DNA of 64,000 bases, taken from contig NZ_CABPRV010000014.1 of NCBI RefSeq assembly GCF_902459735.1, positions 62,001 through 126,000 on the forward strand. The letters are read 5' to 3'. Numbering within the stretch: position 1 is the first letter of the stretch; every line of letters starts with the position of its first letter. The stretch comes from Pandoraea capi (GTDB lineage Bacteria > Pseudomonadota > Gammaproteobacteria > Burkholderiales > Burkholderiaceae). The translations under genes were made by a program, and so were the position numbers. The notes beneath the pieces were generated by a model. It was given only the letters and a program-made list of their open reading frames with translations. It did not search any database and was not told where the DNA came from. This document shows, piece by piece, positions 4,811-43,902 of the stretch.

Positions 4811-5133
4811 CCGACATCACTGACATCGCTCGCCCCACGCGACCCGATCCGCGCCGGTCACCGGCGCGGTACGTCACTGTCAATCGCACGACCCACCTGC
4901 GCGTCATCGTCATCTCATGCCATGCCATGCGGCCTTCGTCATGCAGTCGATGGCCTGCGCATGCCGTGACTCAACGATCATTCGTAAAGCGAATACTTCG
5001 ATACATATTATCGATTTTGAAAATAAAGTCGCGCGACATATCGTGATTGGACAGGCGTCCGCACGCGCGTCGATGCGTCGGAGCCGATGAAGCGCCGGCA
5101 CCCTCGTCGGCGTAACGAGGAGATGGATGAGAC
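4811..5133. promoter_or_regulatory. 323-bp intergenic region with two adjacent dyads before the MHS importer
   Basis: No coding capacity is evident here. Two perfect inverted repeats lie side by side: ATTCG-N5-CGAAT at 4980-4994 (a T-N11-A LysR-type site) and TCGATA-N5-TATCGA at 4998-5014. The surrounding 4980-5030 stretch is AT-rich compared with its flanks, as expected for a promoter. The importer gene starts 120 bp further on. The pair is most likely the control region of that gene. Which regulator binds is not known; the LysR at 10401 is a candidate. Confidence 0.5.
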
Positions 5134-6801
5134 ATGATGCACAACGAGATAGCCTCGTCGTCGCCGGGCGCGATCGATGCCGACGAGAGAAAGATCATAT
5201 TCGCCGCGTCTCTGGGCGCGGTGTTCGAGTGGTACGACTTCTTTTTATACGGCGCACTGGCCGCCATCATTGCCACGCAGTTCTTCAGTAGCCTGAATCA
5301 CACGGCGGCCTTCGTATTTGCGCTGCTGACGTTCGCGGCGGGTTTCATCGTCCGGCCGATCGGCGCGCTGATCTTCGGGCGGCTGGGCGATCTGGTCGGG
5401 CGCAAACACACGTTCTTGCTCACGATCGTCATCATGGGGTGTTCCACGCTGCTGGTCGGCGTACTGCCCGGCTATCAGACGCTGGGCGTGGCGGCCCCCG
5501 TCATTCTGGTGCTGCTGCGCATGTTGCAAGGTCTGGCGCTCGGCGGCGAGTACGGCGCGGCGGCGACTTACGTGGCCGAGCACGCACCCAGCGACAGGCG
5601 CGGCGGCTGGACGGCGTGGATTCAGACGACGTCGACGCTCGGATTGCTGCTGTCGCTGGTCGTCATCATCGCCGTGCGGGCGTTGACGGGAAAGTCGTTC
5701 GACGTCTGGGGCTGGCGCATTCCGTTCCTGCTATCAGGCGTGCTGCTGGCCGTCTCCGTCTACGTGCGCGTGTCGATGCGCGAGTCGCCCGCGTTCCAGA
5801 AAATCAAGGCAGAAGGACGCACATCCCGCGCCCCGCTGACTGAAGCGTTCGGTGAGTGGCGCAATCTCAAACTGGTGCTGCAAGCGCTGTTCGGCCTTCT
5901 CGCGGGGCAAGCCGTCGTGTGGTTTACCGCGCTGTTCTACGCGATGTTCTTTCTCACGCAGACGCTCAAGCTCGATACCGGTACGACCAATCTGCTTGTG
6001 GGGCTGGCGCTGGTGATCAGTTCGCCGCTGTACATCGTCTTCGGCAGGCTATCGGATCGCATCGGCCGCAAGCCGGTCATTCTCTGTGGCCTGTTTCTGG
6101 CCGCCGCAACACTCTTTCCGATCTTCCACGGACTCACGCACTTCGCCAACCCCGCGCTTGCCCGTGCCCAGCAGACGTCGCCCGTGGTCATCGTGAGCGA
6201 TCCGGCGGACTGCTCGTTCCAGTTCAACCCGACAGGCACCGCGACGTTCGATAACGCCTGTGACGTCGCCAGACGTGTGTTGTCCGCCAACTCGGCGAGC
6301 TACGCGACGATCTCCGCCCCGGCGGGCGCGAAGACCGTCATCAGAGTGGGGACGGTGGAAATTGCCGCACCGTCGTTGCATGGCCTGCCGCCCGCGCAGG
6401 CCAAAGCCACCGAGCAGGCGTTCCGGGCGGCGACCGGACAGGCGCTCTCGCTCGCGGGATACCCGACGAATGCGGACCCCGAGGCCGTCAACGAACCCAT
6501 GATTCTGGTCCTGCTGATCGTGCTGATGGCTTACGGGGCCATGACGCTGGGCCCGATCGCCGCCATCCTCGTCGAAATGTTCCCGACACGCATTCGCTAC
6601 TCGGCGATGTCGCTGCCTTATCACATCGGTAACGGCTATTTCGGTGGTCTTTTGCCGACCGTGTGCTTCGCGCTCGTCGCACAACGCGGCGACATCTATT
6701 TCGGTCTTTGGTACCCGGTCGTCGTGGCGGCGATCTCCGGCGTCATCGGTCTGGTCTTCATCAAGGAGCCGACCCGCGATCAGATGTACGGTGACGACTA
6801 A
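5134..6801 (+). CDS. MFS transporter, metabolite:H+ symporter (MHS) family, with large extra loop
   Basis: This is a 12-helix importer of the ProP/ShiA/KgtP type. It has the family start region LGAVFEWYDFFLYG, motif A as GRLGDLVGRKHTF, and LQGLALGGEYGAAATYVAEHAP. Its 555 residues exceed the usual 430-450 because about 115 residues (roughly 336-452) are inserted before the MILVLLIVLM helix. The insert is hydrophilic, contains two Cys (PADCSF, NACDVA) and is Pro/Ala-rich; its placement suggests it faces the periplasm. MHS proteins take up organic acids and similar compounds. The gene lies just before the dehalogenase-like gene on the same strand, so it may supply the substrate of that module. 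Confidence 0.93.
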   Translation: MMHNEIASSSPGAIDADERKIIFAASLGAVFEWYDFFLYGALAAIIATQFFSSLNHTAAFVFALLTFAAGFIVRPIGALIFGRLGDLVGRKHTFLLTIVIMGCSTLLVGVLPGYQTLGVAAPVILVLLRMLQGLALGGEYGAAATYVAEHAPSDRRGGWTAWIQTTSTLGLLLSLVVIIAVRALTGKSFDVWGWRIPFLLSGVLLAVSVYVRVSMRESPAFQKIKAEGRTSRAPLTEAFGEWRNLKLVLQALFGLLAGQAVVWFTALFYAMFFLTQTLKLDTGTTNLLVGLALVISSPLYIVFGRLSDRIGRKPVILCGLFLAAATLFPIFHGLTHFANPALARAQQTSPVVIVSDPADCSFQFNPTGTATFDNACDVARRVLSANSASYATISAPAGAKTVIRVGTVEIAAPSLHGLPPAQAKATEQAFRAATGQALSLAGYPTNADPEAVNEPMILVLLIVLMAYGAMTLGPIAAILVEMFPTRIRYSAMSLPYHIGNGYFGGLLPTVCFALVAQRGDIYFGLWYPVVVAAISGVIGLVFIKEPTRDQMYGDD

Positions 6802-6806
6802 TTATT

Positions 6807-6822
6807 CACCATATCAATGGTG
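6807..6822. promoter_or_regulatory. Inverted repeat after the MHS gene
   Basis: CACCAT-atca-ATGGTG starts five bases after the MHS stop codon. No T run follows, so a rho-independent terminator is unlikely. It lies 11 bp from the shared 21-bp element and may be part of the control region of the downstream gene. Confidence 0.35.
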
Positions 6823-6832
6823 TGATGATAAC

Positions 6833-6853
6833 AATCCATTTCATAAATAAATT
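6833..6853. promoter_or_regulatory. Copy 1 of a 21-bp element shared with 10320-10340 (inverted)
   Basis: Positions 6833-6853 are the exact reverse complement of 10320-10340. The core read on the minus strand is ATTT-N7-AAAT, a T-N11-A LysR-type site. It stands 73 bp before the dehalogenase-like gene, while the other copy stands 46 bp before the CoA-transferase operon. Identity ends sharply at both edges. A common operator for the LysR regulator encoded at 10401 is the simplest reading. Confidence 0.75.
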
Positions 6854-6926
6854 GCGATTGTTTAGATTGGTCGGGTAGCGACTTCACGGTGAATTCGCAA
6901 CGCCCAACCCAACAGGAGGCCATGAC

Positions 6927-7631
6927 ATGGCAGACGTGGAACAGTTGAAGCAGGACATCAAGGTAGTGATGTTCGACCAGTACGGCACGGTGGTGGATAT
7001 GCAAGGCGGTCTGACGCAAGTTGCGACGCCGTTTCTGCGGGACAAGGGGTGGACGGGTAACCCGAACTCGTTCGTGACGTGGTGGCGCCGTACCCATTTC
7101 GAGAACTCGATGATCGATGCATTGCTGCACAAGGCGCACACGCCGTATCGCGAGATTGGCCATCGTGCCGTGTCGTACACGCTCGAACGTGCGGGGATTT
7201 CCTTCACGCGCGAAGAGGTCGAGTACCTGGTGTCCAACATCGAGAAGCTCAAGCCGTTCCCGGACGTACCCGAGGCGCTGGCTCGTCTCCAGACGAAATA
7301 CAAGATCGTCGTGCTTTCCAACGGGGATCGGGACATGCTGGAGACTGCGAAGCAGTATCACCAGATTCCGTTCGATAACGTGATCTCGGTTGCCGAAGCC
7401 AATTCGTTCAAGCCGCATGTGGCGACGTACACGAAGGCCGCCGAGATCATGGGCGTGCGTATGGACGAGGTGCTGTTCGTCGCCAACCACGCGTTCGACT
7501 GTCTGGGGGCGAAGGCGGCGGGCATGCGCAGCGCCTTCATCGACCGTCGCAAGCGTCCGTTCGGCGGCACGCCGCATCAGCCGGATATCTGGGTCGACGA
7601 CATGAAGTCGCTCGCCGACGTGATGGTCTGA
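6927..7631 (+). CDS. HAD-superfamily hydrolase, haloacid dehalogenase type II-like
   Basis: The 234-residue length and sequence match the type II 2-haloacid dehalogenase branch of the HAD superfamily. The nucleophile is D17 in VVMFDQYGTVVD, motif II is LSNGDRDML, and the Lys and Tyr of motif III are in SFKPHVATY. In proven L-2-haloacid dehalogenases the next loop carries Ser and Asn that hold the substrate. Here it reads FVANHAFD, with Ala186 and His188 at those places, so a true haloacid substrate is doubtful. AGGAGG precedes the ATG by seven bases. The upstream 21-bp element links it to the CoA-transferase operon that converges on it. Confidence 0.88.
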   Translation: MADVEQLKQDIKVVMFDQYGTVVDMQGGLTQVATPFLRDKGWTGNPNSFVTWWRRTHFENSMIDALLHKAHTPYREIGHRAVSYTLERAGISFTREEVEYLVSNIEKLKPFPDVPEALARLQTKYKIVVLSNGDRDMLETAKQYHQIPFDNVISVAEANSFKPHVATYTKAAEIMGVRMDEVLFVANHAFDCLGAKAAGMRSAFIDRRKRPFGGTPHQPDIWVDDMKSLADVMV

Positions 7632-7641
7632 GACAGCAGGT

Positions 7642-8508
7642 TTATAGGTGGCTGGCCCGGCGCAGAATGGCTTTGGCGCGATCTACGACCGGGCGATCGA
7701 CCATGTGGCCATCCATCATGACGGCATGCGAGCGCTGGGTGGCGTCGATGACGCGATGCGCCCACGCGATTTCGTCTGCGGAAGGGGAGAATACGGTGCG
7801 TGCAACCGGCAATTGCGTCGGATGCACGCACAGCTTGCCCAGAAAGCCCAGATTGCGTTCGAACCTGGCTGACCGCTCGAAGGCTTGCAGATCCGCGATG
7901 TTCTCGGTGGCGCCGGCAATCGGCGCGGGCAACCCGGCGGCGCTGGAGGCCAGCACCATTCGTGCACTCGGATAAAAGAGGCCGACGTCCTGATCCGGGG
8001 GCAACGACAGTGCCGTCTGGAAATCCATGTTGCCGAACGCCACGCGGCAGAGCTTGCCGGTGTCGATGATCGATTCGACGTTGAGGATGCCGCGCGCCGT
8101 TTCGATCATGCCGACCCGAGGCAGCGACGCCGGTAACGCATTCGCGGCGGCAATCAGGTCATCGGCGCTGTTGACCATGGTGAGGAATACGCCCGCAATA
8201 CGCTTATGAAAGCGGACGAGCGCCGCGAGATCATGCGGAAACTCGTCGCCGGTCGAAGGGTTGAGCCGGATGGCAACGCGTCGACCGTCGATGTTGCGCA
8301 CGAACGCTGCCGTGTTTTCACGCGCCTGCGCCTTGTTCGCCCCGATGACCGAGGCTTCCCAGTCGATGATGACGACGTCGGCGTCATACCCCAGCGCTTT
8401 CTCGAAACGTTCCGGCCGGTCGCCGGGCGCAAAAAGAAACGTCTGGGCAGTAGCGAGGTTCGCAGCATTCCCACGGGAAGCGGGGCGTGGCGTATTGGCA
8501 GATGTCAT
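7642..8508 (-). CDS. CoA-ester lyase of the HpcH/HpaI-CitE family
   Basis: The 288-residue TIM-barrel protein resembles the CitE-like lyases (citramalyl-, malyl- or beta-methylmalyl-CoA lyase). The CoA/substrate Arg is seen in VAIRLNP, the metal ligands Glu in MIETARG and Asp in FGNMDF, and the C-terminal KLCVHPTQ helps close the site. The usual DLEDAV segment reads DWEASV. It is the last gene of a three-gene minus-strand operon with a thioesterase and a CoA transferase. The likely job is cleavage of a hydroxyacyl-CoA, made by the transferase, into acetyl- or propionyl-CoA and an oxoacid; this is inference from context. Confidence 0.88.
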   Translation of the reverse strand: MTSANTPRPASRGNAANLATAQTFLFAPGDRPERFEKALGYDADVVIIDWEASVIGANKAQARENTAAFVRNIDGRRVAIRLNPSTGDEFPHDLAALVRFHKRIAGVFLTMVNSADDLIAAANALPASLPRVGMIETARGILNVESIIDTGKLCRVAFGNMDFQTALSLPPDQDVGLFYPSARMVLASSAAGLPAPIAGATENIADLQAFERSARFERNLGFLGKLCVHPTQLPVARTVFSPSADEIAWAHRVIDATQRSHAVMMDGHMVDRPVVDRAKAILRRASHL

Positions 8509-8560
8509 GGCAAGTGCATTCCTTCGACGTTGACGTCGGCATCACTACATCGTTTGCGCG

Positions 8561-8989
8561 TTAAAGCACCTTCCAGGTCGACGTCGCGCTGGCCAGCAGC
8601 TTGCCGTCGGCGTCGCGGACGTCGGACTGGAGGAAACAGATCTGCCGTCCCTTGCTGCTGAAACGGCTGGTGGCGGTGATCTGCCCTTCGCGAACCGCGC
8701 GCGTGTACTGGATGTTCATGGCCAGCGTGGCGCCCGCGCCGACCTCGCGCCTGAGCAGGTGTCCCATGGAGATATCGAGCAATGTCGCGCTCACACCGCC
8801 GTGCAGCGAGCCCTGCGGGTTGAACATGAAGTCCCGCACGGTCATGGTGACGGTGCAGGTCTGATCGGCGTAAGCGACATGCATCCCATACAGCTTGAGC
8901 AGGAAGAAGGTGTCGAAATCCTGGTGATAGCTGCGCAGCGCGGCCTCGAAGGCATCTCGTGCCTGTGCTTCGTCGATTGGCTTGTCCAT
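8561..8989 (-). CDS. Hotdog-fold acyl-CoA thioesterase, PaaI-like
   Basis: The 142-residue protein is a single hotdog domain of the PaaI/4HBT type. The active-site helix is visible as NPQGSLHGGVSATLLDIS, with the conserved HGG and the Asp at the helix. Such enzymes hydrolyse acyl-CoA, often to free CoA trapped in dead-end esters. Its ATG immediately follows the stop codon of the CoA-transferase gene (8990), so translation is probably coupled. It precedes the CitE-like lyase in the same operon. Confidence 0.9.
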   Translation of the reverse strand: MDKPIDEAQARDAFEAALRSYHQDFDTFFLLKLYGMHVAYADQTCTVTMTVRDFMFNPQGSLHGGVSATLLDISMGHLLRREVGAGATLAMNIQYTRAVREGQITATSRFSSKGRQICFLQSDVRDADGKLLASATSTWKVL

Positions 8990-10273
8990 TTAGTCCCGAG
9001 TTGCCGGGGTCGGAAGGTCGCGCACCGTGCCCTGCGCGTGCAACGCGTTGATCGCGTCGTCAGACAGCCCGAGCACCGCGCCGAGAATTTCACGGGTGTG
9101 CTGCCCGAGCATGGGCGGTGCGAGCACCGGATTCAGCGGCTGGTCGTCGAGGCGCACCGGCGACGTAATGTTCTTCACCTCGCCGGCGACGGGATGCGGC
9201 ATCGAGACGATCATGCCGCGCTGCGTGAGCTGCGGCGCTTCGCAGACTTCGCCCACGGTGCGGATCAGGCCGCAAGGCACGCCTGCCGCACCGAGCTTGT
9301 CGACCCAATGGCTTCGTGTGTTGCCACGGAGAATGTCGGTCACCAACGGCTTGAGCGCCTGACGATGTTTCACGCGCAGCGGCGCCGTGACGAAACGCTC
9401 GTCGTCGAACAGCGCCTTCGCACCGGTGACGTCGCAGAACAGCCGCCAGAACTTGTCGTTGGCCACGCCCAGATTGAGCCAGCCGTCCGATGCCTGAAAG
9501 GTCTCGTAGGGACTGATGGTCGGATGCTCGTTCCCCCGGCGGCTGGGAGACAGCCCCGTCGCGAAGTAAATGCCGGCGTTGAACGTCAGCAGCGAGGCGA
9601 GGGCGTCGAGCATGGAGATTTCCACGCAGCGTGCCACGCCGGTCTGCGCCCGTTCGTAAAGTGCCGAGAGAATGCCCTGAACCGCAAACAGGCCCGCGAT
9701 CATGTCGGCAATGGACGTACCGACCTTGGTCGGCTGGCCACCCGGCTCGCCGGTAATGTCCATCACCCCGGCCTCGCCCTGAACGATCAGATCGTAGCCG
9801 GGGCGCTGCGCGTCCGGCCCTTGGGAACCAAAGCCGGAGATGGCGCAGTAGATAAGTTGCGGGTTGCGCTCGCGCAGCGTCGCGAGATCGAGACCGAGGC
9901 GTTGCATCGTGCCCGGACGGAAGTTCTCGATGACGACATCGGCGCTCTCCACGAGATCGAGCAGCAGCTTGCGGCCGGCCTCGTGCTTGAGATCGATGGC
10001 GCAACTGCGCTTGTTGCGATTGACCGACAGGAAATACGCGCTCTCGCCTTCGACGAATGGCGGCCCGAAAGCGCGGCTGTCGTCGCCGTGCGCGGGTTCT
10101 TCGATCTTGACGACATCTGCCCCCAGATCACCCAGATGCATGGTCGCGAATGGACCGGACACCACACGCGTCAGGTCGATGATGCGAATGCCCTCAAGTG
10201 GCCGCGCCGCCGCATGCGTCGCGCGGCCGTGATCGTCATGCGGGGCGTTGTCGGTGGACGGACGCAGGCCCAT
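8990..10273 (-). CDS. Class III (CaiB/BaiF) CoA transferase
   Basis: The 427-residue protein shows the family III CoA-transferase pattern: PLEGIRIIDLTRVVSGPFA, a GADVVKIEEP turn, and SVNRNKRSCAIDLK. The catalytic Asp is expected in the VMDITGEPGG region. Such enzymes move CoA between carboxylic acids, commonly from succinyl-CoA to a substrate acid, and so activate it. It is the first gene of the operon with a thioesterase and a CitE-like lyase. Its promoter region carries a copy of the 21-bp element and lies divergent to a LysR gene. A related class III transferase is found at 42679-43902. Confidence 0.93.
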   Translation of the reverse strand: MGLRPSTDNAPHDDHGRATHAAARPLEGIRIIDLTRVVSGPFATMHLGDLGADVVKIEEPAHGDDSRAFGPPFVEGESAYFLSVNRNKRSCAIDLKHEAGRKLLLDLVESADVVIENFRPGTMQRLGLDLATLRERNPQLIYCAISGFGSQGPDAQRPGYDLIVQGEAGVMDITGEPGGQPTKVGTSIADMIAGLFAVQGILSALYERAQTGVARCVEISMLDALASLLTFNAGIYFATGLSPSRRGNEHPTISPYETFQASDGWLNLGVANDKFWRLFCDVTGAKALFDDERFVTAPLRVKHRQALKPLVTDILRGNTRSHWVDKLGAAGVPCGLIRTVGEVCEAPQLTQRGMIVSMPHPVAGEVKNITSPVRLDDQPLNPVLAPPMLGQHTREILGAVLGLSDDAINALHAQGTVRDLPTPATRD

Positions 10274-10319
10274 TTTCAGTCTCCTTTTGCACGAATCTCA
10301 GGGCAGTCTATCGAGGCCT

Positions 10320-10340
10320 AATTTATTTATGAAATGGATT
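10320..10340. promoter_or_regulatory. Copy 2 of the shared 21-bp element
   Basis: Positions 10320-10340 are the exact reverse complement of 6833-6853. The site contains ATTT-N7-AAAT (T-N11-A form) and lies 46 bp before the CoA-transferase start and 60 bp before the LysR start. Each copy therefore has the same orientation relative to the gene it precedes. The match suggests one regulator for both transcripts. Confidence 0.75.
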
Positions 10341-10355
10341 TTTAGTATCCAAACA

Positions 10356-10372
10356 TTCATATAGGATATGAA
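10356..10372. promoter_or_regulatory. Perfect dyad TTCATAT-N3-ATATGAA in the LysR/CoA-transferase gap
   Basis: Seven-base arms surround AGG. It lies 28 bp before the LysR ATG at 10401 and 15 bp from the 21-bp element. This arrangement of two sites fits a LysR recognition site plus an activation or autoregulation site. No experimental support is available here. Confidence 0.55.
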
Positions 10373-10400: not shown

Positions 10401-11303
10401 ATGAATTTGCGCGCTGTCGATTTGAACCTGCTCGTGATCTTCGACGCCCTCATGCGCGAGCGCCACGTGACCCGCGCGGCGTTGCGCATTCCGATGAGCC
10501 AACCGGCCATGAGCAATGCACTGGCACGGCTTCGTCATGTCTTCCGCGACGATCTGTTCATTCGCTCCGGCGGCACGATGGAGCCCACGCCGCGCGCCAT
10601 CGAACTGGGGGAGTCGGTGCGGCAGATTCTCCGGCAGACGGAGCGGTTGATGTCGAGCGACGTGAACTTCGACCCGGCCACGACGCAGCGCGAATTCACG
10701 GCGCGCATGTCGGATCTCGTGGGATGTCTGGTGCTGCCGCAGATTCTCGCGGCCATCGCCGAATCGGCGCCCGGCGTCACGCTCGATATCCTGCACATGT
10801 CGCCGGAGCGCACGATCAAGGGGCTGGAGAGCGACGAGCTGGACTTCGGTCTGAGCATGCAGCTTCAGCACGCCTCCAACATTCGCCGGCAACCGTTGTT
10901 CATGGATCAGATGGTGTGCGTGATGCGCGCGGATCATCCGCTGGCCGCAGGCAGGCTGACGATGAAGCGCTTTCTCGAAGCCGAGCATCTGCGTGTTGCG
11001 ATGAGCCCGACGGATATCCGCTTTGTCGACAATGTGCTCGCCGATCAGGGATTCGCAAGAAAAGTCGTCGCGAAAGTCCCGCACTGGCTGCTGATTCCGC
11101 CGATTCTGCAAGAAAGCCATCTGATCGCGGTCATCTCCGGCAAGCTCGCGGCGCGCTTCTCGTCCGAGACGATTGCGGTCCGGCCGCTGCCGTTTCCATC
11201 GGAACCTTTCTCGTGGGATATCTACTGGCATCGCCGCAACGACAACAGCGCTTCGCATAAGTGGATGCGTGATCTGGTCGTCGGCGCGTGCTCGGCGATC
11301 TAG
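10401..11303 (+). CDS. LysR-type regulator (NodD/NahR-like branch), probable controller of the HAD/CoA-transferase regulon
   Basis: The 300-residue protein begins MNLRAVDLNLLVIFDALMRE and continues with a helix-turn-helix including SQPAMSNALARLR, the form typical of the NodD/NahR/LinR branch. That branch often responds to aromatic or chlorinated acids. The rest is the effector-binding domain, with a PDIRFVD-like loop read here as PTDIRFVDNVLADQG. A GAGGATCTGAA leader gives a ribosome site. It is divergent from the CoA-transferase operon, and the gap holds two dyads, one of them repeated before the dehalogenase-like gene. Confidence 0.93.
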   Translation: MNLRAVDLNLLVIFDALMRERHVTRAALRIPMSQPAMSNALARLRHVFRDDLFIRSGGTMEPTPRAIELGESVRQILRQTERLMSSDVNFDPATTQREFTARMSDLVGCLVLPQILAAIAESAPGVTLDILHMSPERTIKGLESDELDFGLSMQLQHASNIRRQPLFMDQMVCVMRADHPLAAGRLTMKRFLEAEHLRVAMSPTDIRFVDNVLADQGFARKVVAKVPHWLLIPPILQESHLIAVISGKLAARFSSETIAVRPLPFPSEPFSWDIYWHRRNDNSASHKWMRDLVVGACSAI

Positions 11304-40895: not shown

Positions 40896-41765
40896 TTACT
40901 TCTTCTTCTTGCGGACGACCTTCTTGGCGGGGGCCGGAGCGTCGTCGTCCTGAACGGTCAACTGGCCGCCCGTGCCGAGGCCGCCGGCGACGGTTTGCTG
41001 CTTGTAGTTCTTCACGGCGCGCACGACGTTGTTGTACGAGTCGGTGAACGCCGCCACGATGACCTTGCCTTCGGCGGTGTTCGAGTAACCGCCGAGCGAG
41101 CCGCCGGCCGAGCTGCCGACGATGCGACCGAGCGCGCCGAAGTCCATGGCCGAGGCGCTGCCTTCTGCGGCGGCGATCTGCACGCTGGAGCGGTTGTCGA
41201 TGACGGTCAGCAGGGTGCTGGCTTCCTTCGAGTTCATGCTGCCGGCGAGTGCGCCGATGGCCGAACCGATGCCGCCCGGCAGGAGGCCGGCGAGGCTGGC
41301 GCCGGCACCGCCGGCGTTGTTATTCGTGAACGTGATCGACGGGCTGATCGCGTAGTCGGCGGCGACCATCTTGCCCTTGCCGAAGTTCGACTTGCCGCGC
41401 AGTTCGCCGGATTCCTGGAGCGAGCGTTCGCCCATGATGGTGTTCATGCCGCGACCGCGATCGACCACGACGAAGCAGTTCGATTGCTGGACGAGGAGCT
41501 TGAGCACCGGCACGGTCGAGCCGAGCTTGTACTGGCCGGTCAGCACACCGTACCACGGGGCGGACGTGTCTTCGATGACGGCGATCGTACCCAGCGGGCG
41601 ATCGCACTTCTCGAGCGTGGAGTTGGCGTTTTCGGAGTTTGCGCCGCCGGCCGAACCGGTGGCTGCCGTCTTGGCGCTGCTGCTCCCCTGGTTCATGGTC
41701 GAGCAACCCGCCATGATGCCGGCCGCAAGCAGCAGACCGGATATTTTTACGAGATGGTGTGCCAT
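40896..41765 (-). CDS. CsgG/HfaB-family outer-membrane lipoprotein
   Basis: The 289-residue protein has a lipoprotein signal with lipobox MAGC (Cys21) and a CsgG-type body: TIAVIEDTSAPWYGVL, then a nucleotide-fold-like segment VVVDRGRGMNTIMGER, a Gly/Ala-rich transmembrane-hairpin-like stretch (GASLAGLLPGGIGSAIG), and a DNRSSVQIAAAEGSA strand. CsgG forms the curli secretion pore; here no csgA, B, E or F gene is near, so a different export or assembly role is likely. The C-terminus ends in a basic KKVVRKKKK tail. Confidence 0.85.
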   Translation of the reverse strand: MAHHLVKISGLLLAAGIMAGCSTMNQGSSSAKTAATGSAGGANSENANSTLEKCDRPLGTIAVIEDTSAPWYGVLTGQYKLGSTVPVLKLLVQQSNCFVVVDRGRGMNTIMGERSLQESGELRGKSNFGKGKMVAADYAISPSITFTNNNAGGAGASLAGLLPGGIGSAIGALAGSMNSKEASTLLTVIDNRSSVQIAAAEGSASAMDFGALGRIVGSSAGGSLGGYSNTAEGKVIVAAFTDSYNNVVRAVKNYKQQTVAGGLGTGGQLTVQDDDAPAPAKKVVRKKKK

Positions 41766-42001
41766 TTTCCTAGTTCTTTAGAATGTTGTTCTGGAAAGGG
41801 CGGCGCTGCCGCACCCGCATGAAGCCTGGGTTTCGGCCAAGTCGGTGACGCCGCCGAATGCCAGGAGTCCAAAAAAGCAGGAGTGAAAGTCATTTAGGGT
41901 AGGACTCCTATGCTGAAATGCTCCGTAAGAACATTCCGCGCCGCATGCTAGCACGGGCGTAAATTGCGTAGACCCTATCAAATTTAGTGGGGATTACGAA
42001 T

Positions 42002-42044
42002 GGATTAGGTGGGTGCTTTCATTGGGATTAGGTGTGGATTAGGT
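42002..42044. repeat. Three direct copies of GGATTAGGT
   Basis: Copies lie at 42002-42010, 42025-42033 and 42036-42044, with spacings of 14 and 2 bases. The gap upstream of the CsgG-like start is about 240 bp. The repeats could be protein-binding sites or remains of a repeat; no function is shown. Confidence 0.55.
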
Positions 42045-42190
42045 AGAAACCATTAATCGATTTTCTAATCGCTCGCGAATGGACTTTGAAGCAGGGCACT
42101 GGAACGTGGTTGCCGGTTGGACGTATGGCGGCGCTGAGATGAGGCGACAGGCGAGCGTCGTGTCGAACGGAAACGAACAGCAAACAAAAA

Positions 42191-42222
42191 GCCCCGGCAG
42201 CGATCGCTGTGCGGGGCGTTTT
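42191..42222 (-). terminator. Terminator after tRNA-Arg
   Basis: Read on the minus strand, GCCCCG...CGGGGC with an inner self-complementary CAGCGATCGCTG forms a long stem at 42191-42218, followed by a T run (the A run at 42186-42190 on the plus strand). It lies about 50 bp after the tRNA 3' end. Confidence 0.8.
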
Positions 42223-42266
42223 CGTTTGGGGATGCAGTGAGGTGACGTCTCTGCGATACCGTCTTT

Positions 42267-42341
42267 TGGTCCCCCCGGCAGGAATCGAACCTGCATCTAG
42301 CGCTTAGGAGGCACTTGTTCTATCCATTGAACTACAGGGAG
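42267..42341 (-). tRNA. tRNA-Arg (anticodon CCU)
   Basis: The minus strand folds into a full cloverleaf. The acceptor stem CTCCCTG pairs with CGGGGGG (two G-T pairs), the D stem is GTTC/GAAC, the anticodon stem AGTGC/GCGCT encloses loop CTCCTAA with anticodon CCT, and the T arm is GCAGG-TTCGATT-CCTGC. The discriminator is A and CCA is encoded. It reads the AGG codon. Confidence 0.96.
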
Positions 42342-42678
42342 AGACTGGATGCTATCCAGTGGCGCGACACCCTCTGCAATCAGAGGTGCCGCTTTGTTTA
42401 TGAGGCTTTCCGGGCGATTGTGATACCCCTAACGTATCACTTCGGAACACCTTATAACCTGCTATTTCACATCGCCATTGCTACTGTTTTGCTACGGCAA
42501 GTCGGGCGACAGTGGCATCGATTGCGCAGGTAGGAACGCGTTGGCGCACCCAAGTTCGACGCGAGGGCAAGAGTATAGCAAAAACGGTTCGGGCGAAGGC
42601 CCGTACCTACGCGCATCCACCCGAATGCGGCGCGCGCTTCAGTGCTTCTGCCATCCATCATTGAGTGAGCGTTGCGTG
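42342..42678. other. 337-bp gap upstream of tRNA-Arg
   Basis: A frame that begins inside the tRNA and runs to 42533 has no recognisable product and is judged spurious. The stretch 42380-42510 is AT-richer than the region. No promoter for the tRNA could be defined with confidence, and nothing else is seen. Confidence 0.45.
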
Positions 42679-43902
42679 TCAGACGATGCCGCTCTCGCGC
42701 AGCCCGGCGATCTGCGTGTCGTCCAGCCCCAGGCGCTCGCGCAGAATGTCGTCGCTGTGCTGACCGAGCGTCGGCGGCGCGCGGTGGGCCACCGGCGGCG
42801 TCTCGCTCATCTTCATGGGACTGGCCACCAGACGCGCGACACCCCCGGACGGATGCGGCAACTCGATCGCCATCTCGCGCGCGAGCACTTGCGGGTGTGC
42901 GAAGACTTCCGGCAGCGTGTTGATCGGCCCGCACGGCACGCTTGCGACTTCCAGCCTGTCGATCCATTCGTCCTTGCCGAACTTGCGCACCATTTGCGCA
43001 AGGATCGGCACGAGCACCTCGCGATGGCGCACGCGCGACGGGTTGGTAGCGAAGCGTTCGTCGTCGGCCAGCGCTGGCTCGCCGCCCGCTTCCACAAATT
43101 TGCGGAACTGCCCGTCGTTGCCCACGGCGACGATGATCCAGCCGTCATCGCCCGTCTGAAACGTCTGATACGGAACGATGTTCGGATGCGCATTGCTCCA
43201 GCGCACCGGCGCCTTCTCGCTGGCGAGATAGTTGGTGTTCATGTTCGCGAGCATCGCGACCTGCGTATCGAGCAGCGCCATGTCGATGTACTGGCCCACG
43301 CCCGTGCGGTCGCGATGGGTGAGGGCGGCCATGATGGCGATGGTGGCATACATGCCGGTCATGAGGTCGGCGATAGCGACCCCGGCCTTCTGCGGGCCGC
43401 CACCGGGCAGCCCGTCGCGCTCGCCGGTAATGCTCATGAAGCCGCCAATGCCCTGCACGATGAAGTCGTAACCGGCGCGCGACGCGTGCGGGCCGGTCTG
43501 GCCGAAGCCAGTGACGGAGCAGTAGACGAGATCGGGTTTGACGGCCTTGAGCGAGGCGTAATCGAGACCGTACTTCGCCAGTTGACCGACCTTGTAGTTC
43601 TCGACGACGACGTCGCTTTGCGCCGCGAGCGAACGCACGATGGCCTGACCTTCGGGGCGGGAAATGTCCAGCGTAAGGGAGCGCTTGTTGCGGTTGGCCG
43701 CGAGGTAGTACGCGGCCTCTGTCGTGTCGCGGCCTTCGGCGTCGCGTTGGTAGGGCGGGCCCCAGCGACGGGTATCGTCGCCGGCGCCGGGGCGCTCGAC
43801 CTTGATGACGTCTGCGCCCAGATCGGCCAGATTCTGCGTCGCCCACGGTCCGGCCAGCACCCTTGAGAGGTCCAGTACCCGGATATGACTCAGCGCACCC
43901 AT
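42679..43902 (-). CDS. Class III (CaiB/BaiF) CoA transferase
   Basis: The 407-residue protein has the family start [32 protein letters not shown], the [15 protein letters not shown] segment and the [13 protein letters not shown] region near the active-site Asp. It uses CoA exchange to activate a carboxylic acid. AAGGAGAGAG precedes the ATG. It stands alone beside alaS with no clear pathway partners, and is a distant paralogue of the transferase at 8990-10273. The acid acted on is unknown; succinyl-CoA-dependent transfer to a dicarboxylate is typical of close relatives. Confidence 0.93.

Follow-up and report, generated by a model that had tools for sequence, protein, structure and literature searches.

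A Long, Partly Nod-Box-Like Operator Probably Shared by Three Promoters of a LysR-Linked, Apparently Catabolic Gene Cluster in Pandoraea capi

Introduction

Regulons in which a LysR protein serves several promoters are well established. Promoters of LysR-type regulators usually carry a regulatory binding site (RBS) near -65 and further sites near -10 and -35, according to PMC4730206. The nod box is described in PMC5596368 as an operator of 47 bp with the palindrome ATC-N9-GAT. For the regulator BsrA, PMC8407307 reports 765 bound regions sharing only a loose T-N11-A. Here we describe a locus of Pandoraea capi in a stretch of 64,000 nucleotides (assembly GCF_902459735.1, contig NZ_CABPRV010000014.1, positions 62,001 to 126,000 of the forward strand), which was analyzed as a whole and is called the window below. 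It contains an exact 21-bp inverted repeat, and this repeat very probably marks two of the three promoters of a LysR-controlled catabolic regulon. Our literature search, for which subscription papers were mostly out of reach, found no description of this operator and gene set.

The Repeat and Its Extension

A first-pass annotation of the window had reported an exact 21-bp inverted pair with a match that stops at once on both sides, and had read it as the mark of two jointly controlled transcripts with a T-N11-A core in each copy. The pair itself was confirmed: positions 6833-6853 and 10320-10340 are exact reverse complements. Its chance origin is excluded, because base composition predicts only 0.0017 exact 21-bp inverted pairs in 64 kb; copies of this AT-rich 21-mer are expected genome-wide at 2e-8. 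The exact identity does end on both sides, but the similarity continues, so that 6811-6853 matches 10320-10362 over 43 bp at 84%. Joint control is upheld by comparison with relatives, but two transcripts are too few, as the candidate sites in the window number three and not two: they precede the permease of the major facilitator superfamily (MFS), which had been missed, the haloacid dehalogenase-like (HAD) hydrolase, and the operon of coenzyme A (CoA)-transferase, thioesterase and lyase. T-N11-A also stands, being present in 20/20 sites compared, but in a better dyad, ATTC-N7-GAAT, which lies upstream of the 21-mer.

The 21-mer was rejected as a self-standing operator, as relatives keep a longer template and vary inside it. 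Since they do not keep the exact 21-bp identity, this identity is partly incidental. By the same comparison, the 21-mer is the right-hand, -35-overlapping part of a putative promoter-operator of about 65 bp with the template ATTC-N7-GAAT-N6-ATAC-N5-ATCCATTT-N3-AAAT-N14-TANNNT, where the ATCCATTT element is ATCSATTT in IUPAC code.

Promoter-operator 3, upstream of the CoA-transferase operon (10305..10369, minus strand), agrees with the template in 25/27 positions and has the best score in the window, 79.4. It includes the second copy of the 21-mer at 10320-10340, the dyad ATAT-N7-GAAT at 10355-10369 and the -10 element TAGACT at 10305-10310. Promoter-operator 1, upstream of the MFS gene (4980..5044, plus strand; 26/27 positions, score 71.9), consists of the dyad ATTC-N7-GAAT at 4980-4994, ATAC at 5001-5004, ATCGATTT-N3-AAAT at 5010-5024 and the -10 element TATCGT at 5039-5044; its 45-bp operator part occupies 4980-5024. 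Promoter-operator 2, upstream of the HAD gene (6804..6868, plus strand; 24/27 positions, score 66.3), carries the first copy of the 21-mer at 6833-6853 and the -10 element TAGATT at 6863-6868.

Operator Architecture

Altogether 21 promoter stretches were collected from the window and its relatives. The stretch upstream of the Trinickia LysR gene, with 7/13 core positions, was left out, which gave 20 sites. When these promoters were anchored on the core alone, conserved AT, TGAAT and ATAC columns emerged upstream, and TAnnnT began 29 bases after the core start, with its T, A and T in 18, 20 and 18 of the 20 sites. After re-anchoring, this -10 element was in register in 19/20 sites.

The scores given above come from a matrix built only from the 17 sites of relatives, with the three window sites left out; the next place in the 64 kb reaches 5.6. 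In a leave-one-out test over the relatives, 16 of these 17 sites scored 28.5-72.8. Sites of different genes are 83-84% identical in the template columns and 30% in the other columns, while the same gene across genomes gives 85% and 45%, respectively. The likeness between promoters of different genes thus appears to be restricted to the template. The -35-overlapping element lies at a fixed distance from TAnnnT, and the T-N11-A dyad is centred near -64 if the predicted start site is right. With the dyad centred there and the second element overlapping the -35, the layout is consistent with the usual LysR-type arrangement.

How specific is this operator within the genome? Its 15-base core, ATCCATTTNNNAAAT, is found at 116 places in the genome when at most two mismatches are allowed, and the reversed control at 32; 11 of the 116 have one mismatch, including the site upstream of the MFS gene at 5010-5024. 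A check for unrelated copies, suggested together with the first-pass annotation, gave only two perfect core matches in the whole genome, both of them the 21-mer copies, and the 45-bp operator (at most three mismatches) in only three places of the 5.85-Mb genome, all in the window, an outcome that did not refute joint control. Ten further one-mismatch core places (nine stretches) were considered as other targets in this genome; they score at most 2.5 with the full matrix and at most 16.7 with a 34-bp matrix, which covers the part from GAAT to AAAT, and none was accepted.

Related Clusters across the Taxa

The LysR protein was used as a query, and among loci with named organisms it led to Pandoraea anapnoica, Burkholderia sp. 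Bp9142, Trinickia mobilis, Pseudomonas sp. GM84 and a metagenome-assembled genome (MAG) of Paucimonas. In whole-genome searches the gene was found in 3/32 genomes of the genus, in 11/398 genomes of the family at E <=1e-95 (six with at least 80% identity and five with 48-52%), in 1/369 genomes of the class, this one being the source genome itself, and in 3/398 genomes of the genus of the Pseudomonas strain.

Six clusters were compared with that of the window: those of P. anapnoica, another genome of the genus (G020), Bp9142, genome G117, GM84 and the Paucimonas MAG. LysR, CoA-transferase, thioesterase and HAD are present in all six, the lyase in five, and a permease orthologue in five, none being seen in the 12.9 kb of Paucimonas. 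The best-kept enzyme is HAD, with 82-96% identity. Gene order varies among the relatives, yet each promoter retains its site and -10 register, and the operator is kept at 16/17 corresponding promoters. The LysR gene, noticed earlier as divergent from the second repeat copy, is transcribed away from the CoA-transferase gene in the window and in each of its six relatives. In Paucimonas the lyase gene lies on the opposite strand behind a TctC gene, and this pair is preceded by a weaker operator site (18.4).

Elsewhere in the genus, the 45-bp operator with at most three mismatches occurs three times in G020 and once in P. anapnoica; none was found in the other 29 of the 32 genus genomes, and the reversed control gave 0. 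A looser pattern, searched with at most two mismatches in further genomes, was found three times in G117, three in G282, two in G766, two in Paucimonas (G1164) and 0 times in Trinickia (G063), again with 0 for the control. The HAD gene occurs in the same 3/32 genus genomes as the LysR gene and the operator. Around LysR homologues of 48-58% identity the operator was not found in 3.9 kb at each of eight loci (best 34-bp score 14.2).

Joint control of the three units by the adjacent NodD-like LysR protein appears well supported by these comparisons, because the operator is found only at these promoters in the genome and is kept at nearly all corresponding promoters of relatives, and because the genomes of the genus that have it are those that also carry the LysR and HAD genes.

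Several observations weigh against this reading. The template was made after the sites had been viewed, and the sites were then selected by how well they fit it, which inflates the agreement in template columns. The CoA-transferase site of Pseudomonas is weak (7.1 when its own genome is left out), and P. anapnoica has only one of three sites within three mismatches, though the matrix scores all three at 51-73. The G020 cluster has no lyase gene, the best in that genome being 37% identical, and the Paucimonas lyase, at 41%, barely exceeds the lyases found at other places in the relatives (36-40%). Trinickia has a LysR protein of 80% identity (L023:10046-10945), but the operator is not in its genome; the operon was not found in the 19 kb of this locus, where a CaiB-type gene of 40% identity lies farther from LysR, and HAD was not sought in the rest of the genome.

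The Trinickia case also bears on another explanation, in which the shared sites are read by a different regulator, such as a LysR paralogue encoded at another locus, and the adjacent LysR gene is incidental. A close LysR orthologue without sites would agree with this, as would the 125 candidate LysR relatives returned by a first search of the source genome. Set against it are the occurrence of LysR, HAD and operator in the same 3/32 genomes, the constant divergent position of LysR beside the CoA-transferase gene and the fact that a NodD-like DNA-binding domain accompanies a nod-box-like operator, so that we consider a different regulator very unlikely. That the repeats are the termini of a mobile element (inverted terminal repeats), or what is left of one, on either side of the HAD gene and the CoA-transferase operon is hardly credible and was rejected: two exact inverted copies 3.5 kb apart and a patchy cluster (LysR in 3/32 genus genomes) recurring in distant genera would fit it, but a third, diverged copy oriented as the first lies outside the pair at 4980-5044, sites and -10 register follow the promoters in clusters of different gene order, conservation falls mainly in motif columns, and, between the copies, family matches identify the open reading frames (ORFs) of HAD, lyase, thioesterase and CoA-transferase but no transposase.

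Proposed Regulation

The putative regulator of the three promoters is a LysR-type protein of 300 aa (10401..11303, plus strand; PF00126/PF03466) with a NodD/NahR/LeuO-like DNA-binding domain. Its best PDB relative is 2uye, followed by other LysR-type chains. The protein would bind as a tetramer, with one dimer on the ATTC-N7-GAAT dyad, centred at about -64 for a start site 7 nt downstream of the -10 element, and the other on ATAC...ATCSATTT-N3-AAAT, over the -35. At promoter-operator 3 it may also repress its own divergent gene; this is suggested by the dyad of that site, which ends 31 bases before the LysR start codon. The inducer would be an imported acid or an intermediate, on whose binding LysR would shift on the DNA and activate all three promoters. 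The permease would import the acid, the HAD enzyme would hydrolyse it through an Asp ester, the CoA-transferase would activate the product, the lyase would split the activated product, and the thioesterase would free CoA or the end product.

Genes of the Cluster

The MFS permease (5134..6801, plus strand, 555 aa; PF00083/PF07690) is of the metabolite:H+ symporter type and gives 332.6 bits with TIGR00883, under the cut-off of 443. The HAD type II hydrolase (6927..7631, plus strand, 234 aa) exceeds the cut-off of TIGR01428 (153.6 against 125.4 bits) and has D17, R54, K162, H188 and D191. On the minus strand lie a CitE/HpcH-like CoA-ester lyase of 288 aa (7642..8508; PF03328), whose best PDB matches are the acyl-CoA lyase beta chain, a hotdog thioesterase of the 4HBT/PaaI kind of 142 aa (8561..8989; PF03061, and TIGR00369 above cut-off), and a class III (CaiB-type) CoA-transferase of 427 aa (8990..10273; PF02515, E 1.4e-133), for which none of seven NCBIfam models reached its cut-off. 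To the right of the cluster are porin, amidase, RraA-like and SDR genes; of the loci compared, P. anapnoica alone has close counterparts of these (69-89%), and the porin counterpart in Trinickia has 35% identity. Judged by the look of its translation only, a second CaiB-type CoA-transferase gene lies at 42679-43902 (minus strand).

The HAD Hydrolase and the Pathway

The first-pass annotation had proposed a possible acid-degradation pathway with a dehalogenase-like gene. The gene families fit acid degradation, but the label of the HAD enzyme is less secure. Its best PDB match is 8wnh, a chain named 'Epoxide hydrolase' (85.6 bits, E 4e-23), which is RhCESH, a cis-epoxysuccinate hydrolase; next comes L-2-haloacid dehalogenase 1qq5 (83.1 bits, 2e-22). 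PMC10869282 gives for RhCESH the residues D18, R55, K164, H190 and D193, with E212 in the water-activating pair and Y58/R59 as carboxylate ligands. In our alignment Asp17, Arg54, Asn132, Lys162, His188 and Asp191 correspond to RhCESH D18, R55, N134, K164, H190 and D193. The two proteins differ at Tyr19, His57, Phe58, Ser131 and Phe190, where RhCESH has Q20, Y58, R59, T133 and Y192, and no Glu of HAD aligns with E212, which falls in a gapped region. Because these places differ, the substrate is probably another acid than that of RhCESH.

The motif I Asp nucleophile of L-2-haloacid dehalogenases is present, D17 being aligned with it, and hydrolysis through an Asp ester is likely. The Ser and Asn of the VSSN..D motif are known for their role in L-2-haloacid dehalogenase. 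Their places are held by Ala186 and His188 in 7/7 orthologues, whereas Ser and Asn are found in 1qq5 and in the HAD proteins encoded on Polaromonas JS666 and Xanthobacter plasmids, both annotated as type II dehalogenases. The name 'dehalogenase' is therefore doubtful, because the His is as in cis-epoxysuccinate hydrolase where these two dehalogenase-type relatives have Asn. The substrate may be neither a haloacid nor cis-epoxysuccinate itself.

Could the pathway still be one of haloacid degradation, with a permease and an L-2-haloacid dehalogenase? TIGR01428, the model of haloacid dehalogenase type II, is above cut-off, and 1qq5 trails the best PDB match by only 2.5 bits and ranks first for a Halorussus homologue. 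The Deh4a/Deh4p haloacid cluster of Burkholderia MBA4 likewise joins a HAD type II gene and an MFS permease. It differs in that CoA-ester enzymes stand here under the same operator and in that the active site has His and Ala where the dehalogenase-type relatives and 1qq5 have Asn and Ser. Haloacid degradation by itself needs no CoA-transferase, lyase or thioesterase, which also counts against it here, and we regard this explanation as rather unlikely.

Degradation of itaconate or citramalate by the Ict-Ich-Ccl (Rip) type of pathway is very unlikely. That pathway combines a CaiB-type transferase and a CitE-like lyase with a LysR regulator and includes a MaoC-type hydratase, and RipC_Ccl is indeed the best NCBIfam model for the lyase. 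Its score, 122.7 bits, is far under the cut-off of 375, no MaoC-type hydratase match was found among the ten proteins scanned, and HAD and thioesterase would be left unexplained.

As a proposal only, a tartrate-like product that is cleaved as its CoA ester would use all three CoA enzymes. A wider scheme is put forward as speculative and rather unlikely as a whole. In it, a carbon-acid pathway not yet described would be under the control of the NodD-like regulator and its nod-box-type operator in Pandoraea, Burkholderia and Pseudomonas: a HAD enzyme resembling CESH would open an epoxide, or an acid of similar kind, to give a hydroxy acid, and CoA-transferase and CitE-like lyase would then cleave it, for example tartrate to glyoxylate and glycolyl-CoA.

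Some neighbouring genes of related loci were also recorded. Beside the G020 cluster (L021:7240-8394), behind an apparent second LysR gene, there is an enolase-family protein close to 4kem and Bll6730. The latter (PDB 2dw6/2dw7) we take to be D-tartrate dehydratase. A link to tartrate through this gene was not adopted; it concerns one genome, and the one stretch of the neighbourhood that scores 5.5 was not accepted as a site. In G117 (L022:694-5371) and Pseudomonas GM84 (L006:640-3283) the cluster is flanked by an aldehyde dehydrogenase and a GMC oxidoreductase or zinc alcohol dehydrogenase; these neighbours hint that the acid may be formed from an alcohol. On a plasmid of Halorussus limi (L030:3760-12294), a HAD protein of 39% identity lies amid CoA-transferases, a thioesterase, an MR/MLE enzyme and an isocitrate/isopropylmalate-type dehydrogenase. 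The thioesterase has no BLAST match to that of the window, and the MR/MLE protein is 29% identical to the one of G020. Four of the eight top archaeal plasmid matches were examined, and the three besides Halorussus limi lacked the gene set; as a related system the Halorussus limi neighbourhood is a weak lead.

Likeness to the Nod Box

In form, the right part of the predicted operator is of nod-box type. We ran the 34-bp matrix, as well as 45-bp and 65-bp matrices, over 40 kb of Sinorhizobium meliloti pSymA. The four top places of the 34-bp matrix are sequences of nod-box form, with scores of 23.1, 22.5, 22.2 and 17.3, and the fifth place has 7.3. The sequences are presumed to be nod boxes, and the proteins NodD-type, from their form; the pSymA stretch carries no annotation in its record. 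One of these boxes adjoins a NodD-type gene. The sum of the four scores, 85.1, was reached by 0/2000 column-permuted matrices (best 46.3), the boxes being mutually related and not four independent tests.

Other results argue for caution about this likeness. The 45-bp matrix puts three of the boxes at ranks 1-3 (11.0, 3.6, 0.7) and the fourth outside the top eight, and the 65-bp matrix has no nod box on top. Among 50 simulated 40-kb sequences the best score had a mean of 9.0 and a maximum of 23.0, so that a lone score of 17-23 is within reach. The nod-box palindrome ATC-N9-GAT is found in 2/20 sites and in none of the three window sites.

A nod-box-like stretch was also seen elsewhere in the window, between ORFs at 42037-42070 (plus strand), with GATTAGG repeats followed by AATCGATTTTCTAAT and a 34-bp score of 17.2; no LysR gene is among the ORFs of at least 150 aa listed for 41000-43200.

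At the protein level, the DNA-binding domain of the regulator has 61% and 56% identity with the two NodD-type proteins of pSymA, 48% with another LysR-type protein of that stretch and 52% with the NahR-type protein of NAH7. Identity over the whole protein is 29-31% for the pSymA and NAH7 proteins compared. The best NCBIfam model of the regulator is BsrA (PA2121, Pseudomonas aeruginosa), with 217 bits, far under the cut-off of 480. NahR promoters were not picked by the 34-bp matrix, whose best score in 50 kb of NAH7, 9.1, is not at those promoters; with the full matrix the stretch before salA ranks second, at 2.9.

Comparison with Known Systems

A repeat seen by eye has in this way become a defined candidate regulon whose operator, regulator and targets can be tested, and this regulon offers a handle on an uncharacterised acid pathway. 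The likeness to the nod box, away from nodulation genes, makes it possible to study the origin of the nodulation switch and the way in which LysR regulators of the NodD kind read long operators. If the scheme of a NodD-like carbon-acid regulon is true, nodulation control would go back to a catabolic operator of greater age, or at least to one with no tie to symbiosis.

How does the locus compare with the described systems? With CESH[L] (RhCESH) it shares the HAD fold family, but the identity to the HAD enzyme here is about 30%. BsrA has its loose T-N11-A in many regions, whereas this cluster has three sites with a long operator. With the nod box, the predicted operator shares the register GAT(G)-N6-AT-N7-ATC[A/G]ATTT-N3-AAT, its right part ATC[A/G]ATTTTACCAAT being in register with the upstream GAT; it differs in its left half, which is a T-N11-A of the ATTC-N7-GAAT kind. 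Also unlike NodD regulons, the genes behind the sites are those of MFS, HAD and CoA-ester enzymes and look catabolic, and the whole regulator is 31% identical to NodD-type proteins. NahR, which governs the nah and sal operons of NAH7, is similar in that stretches resembling ATTCA...TGAT lie upstream of ndoR and salA, and there too one LysR-type protein serves separate promoters with repeated operators, as the adjacent LysR protein probably does here.

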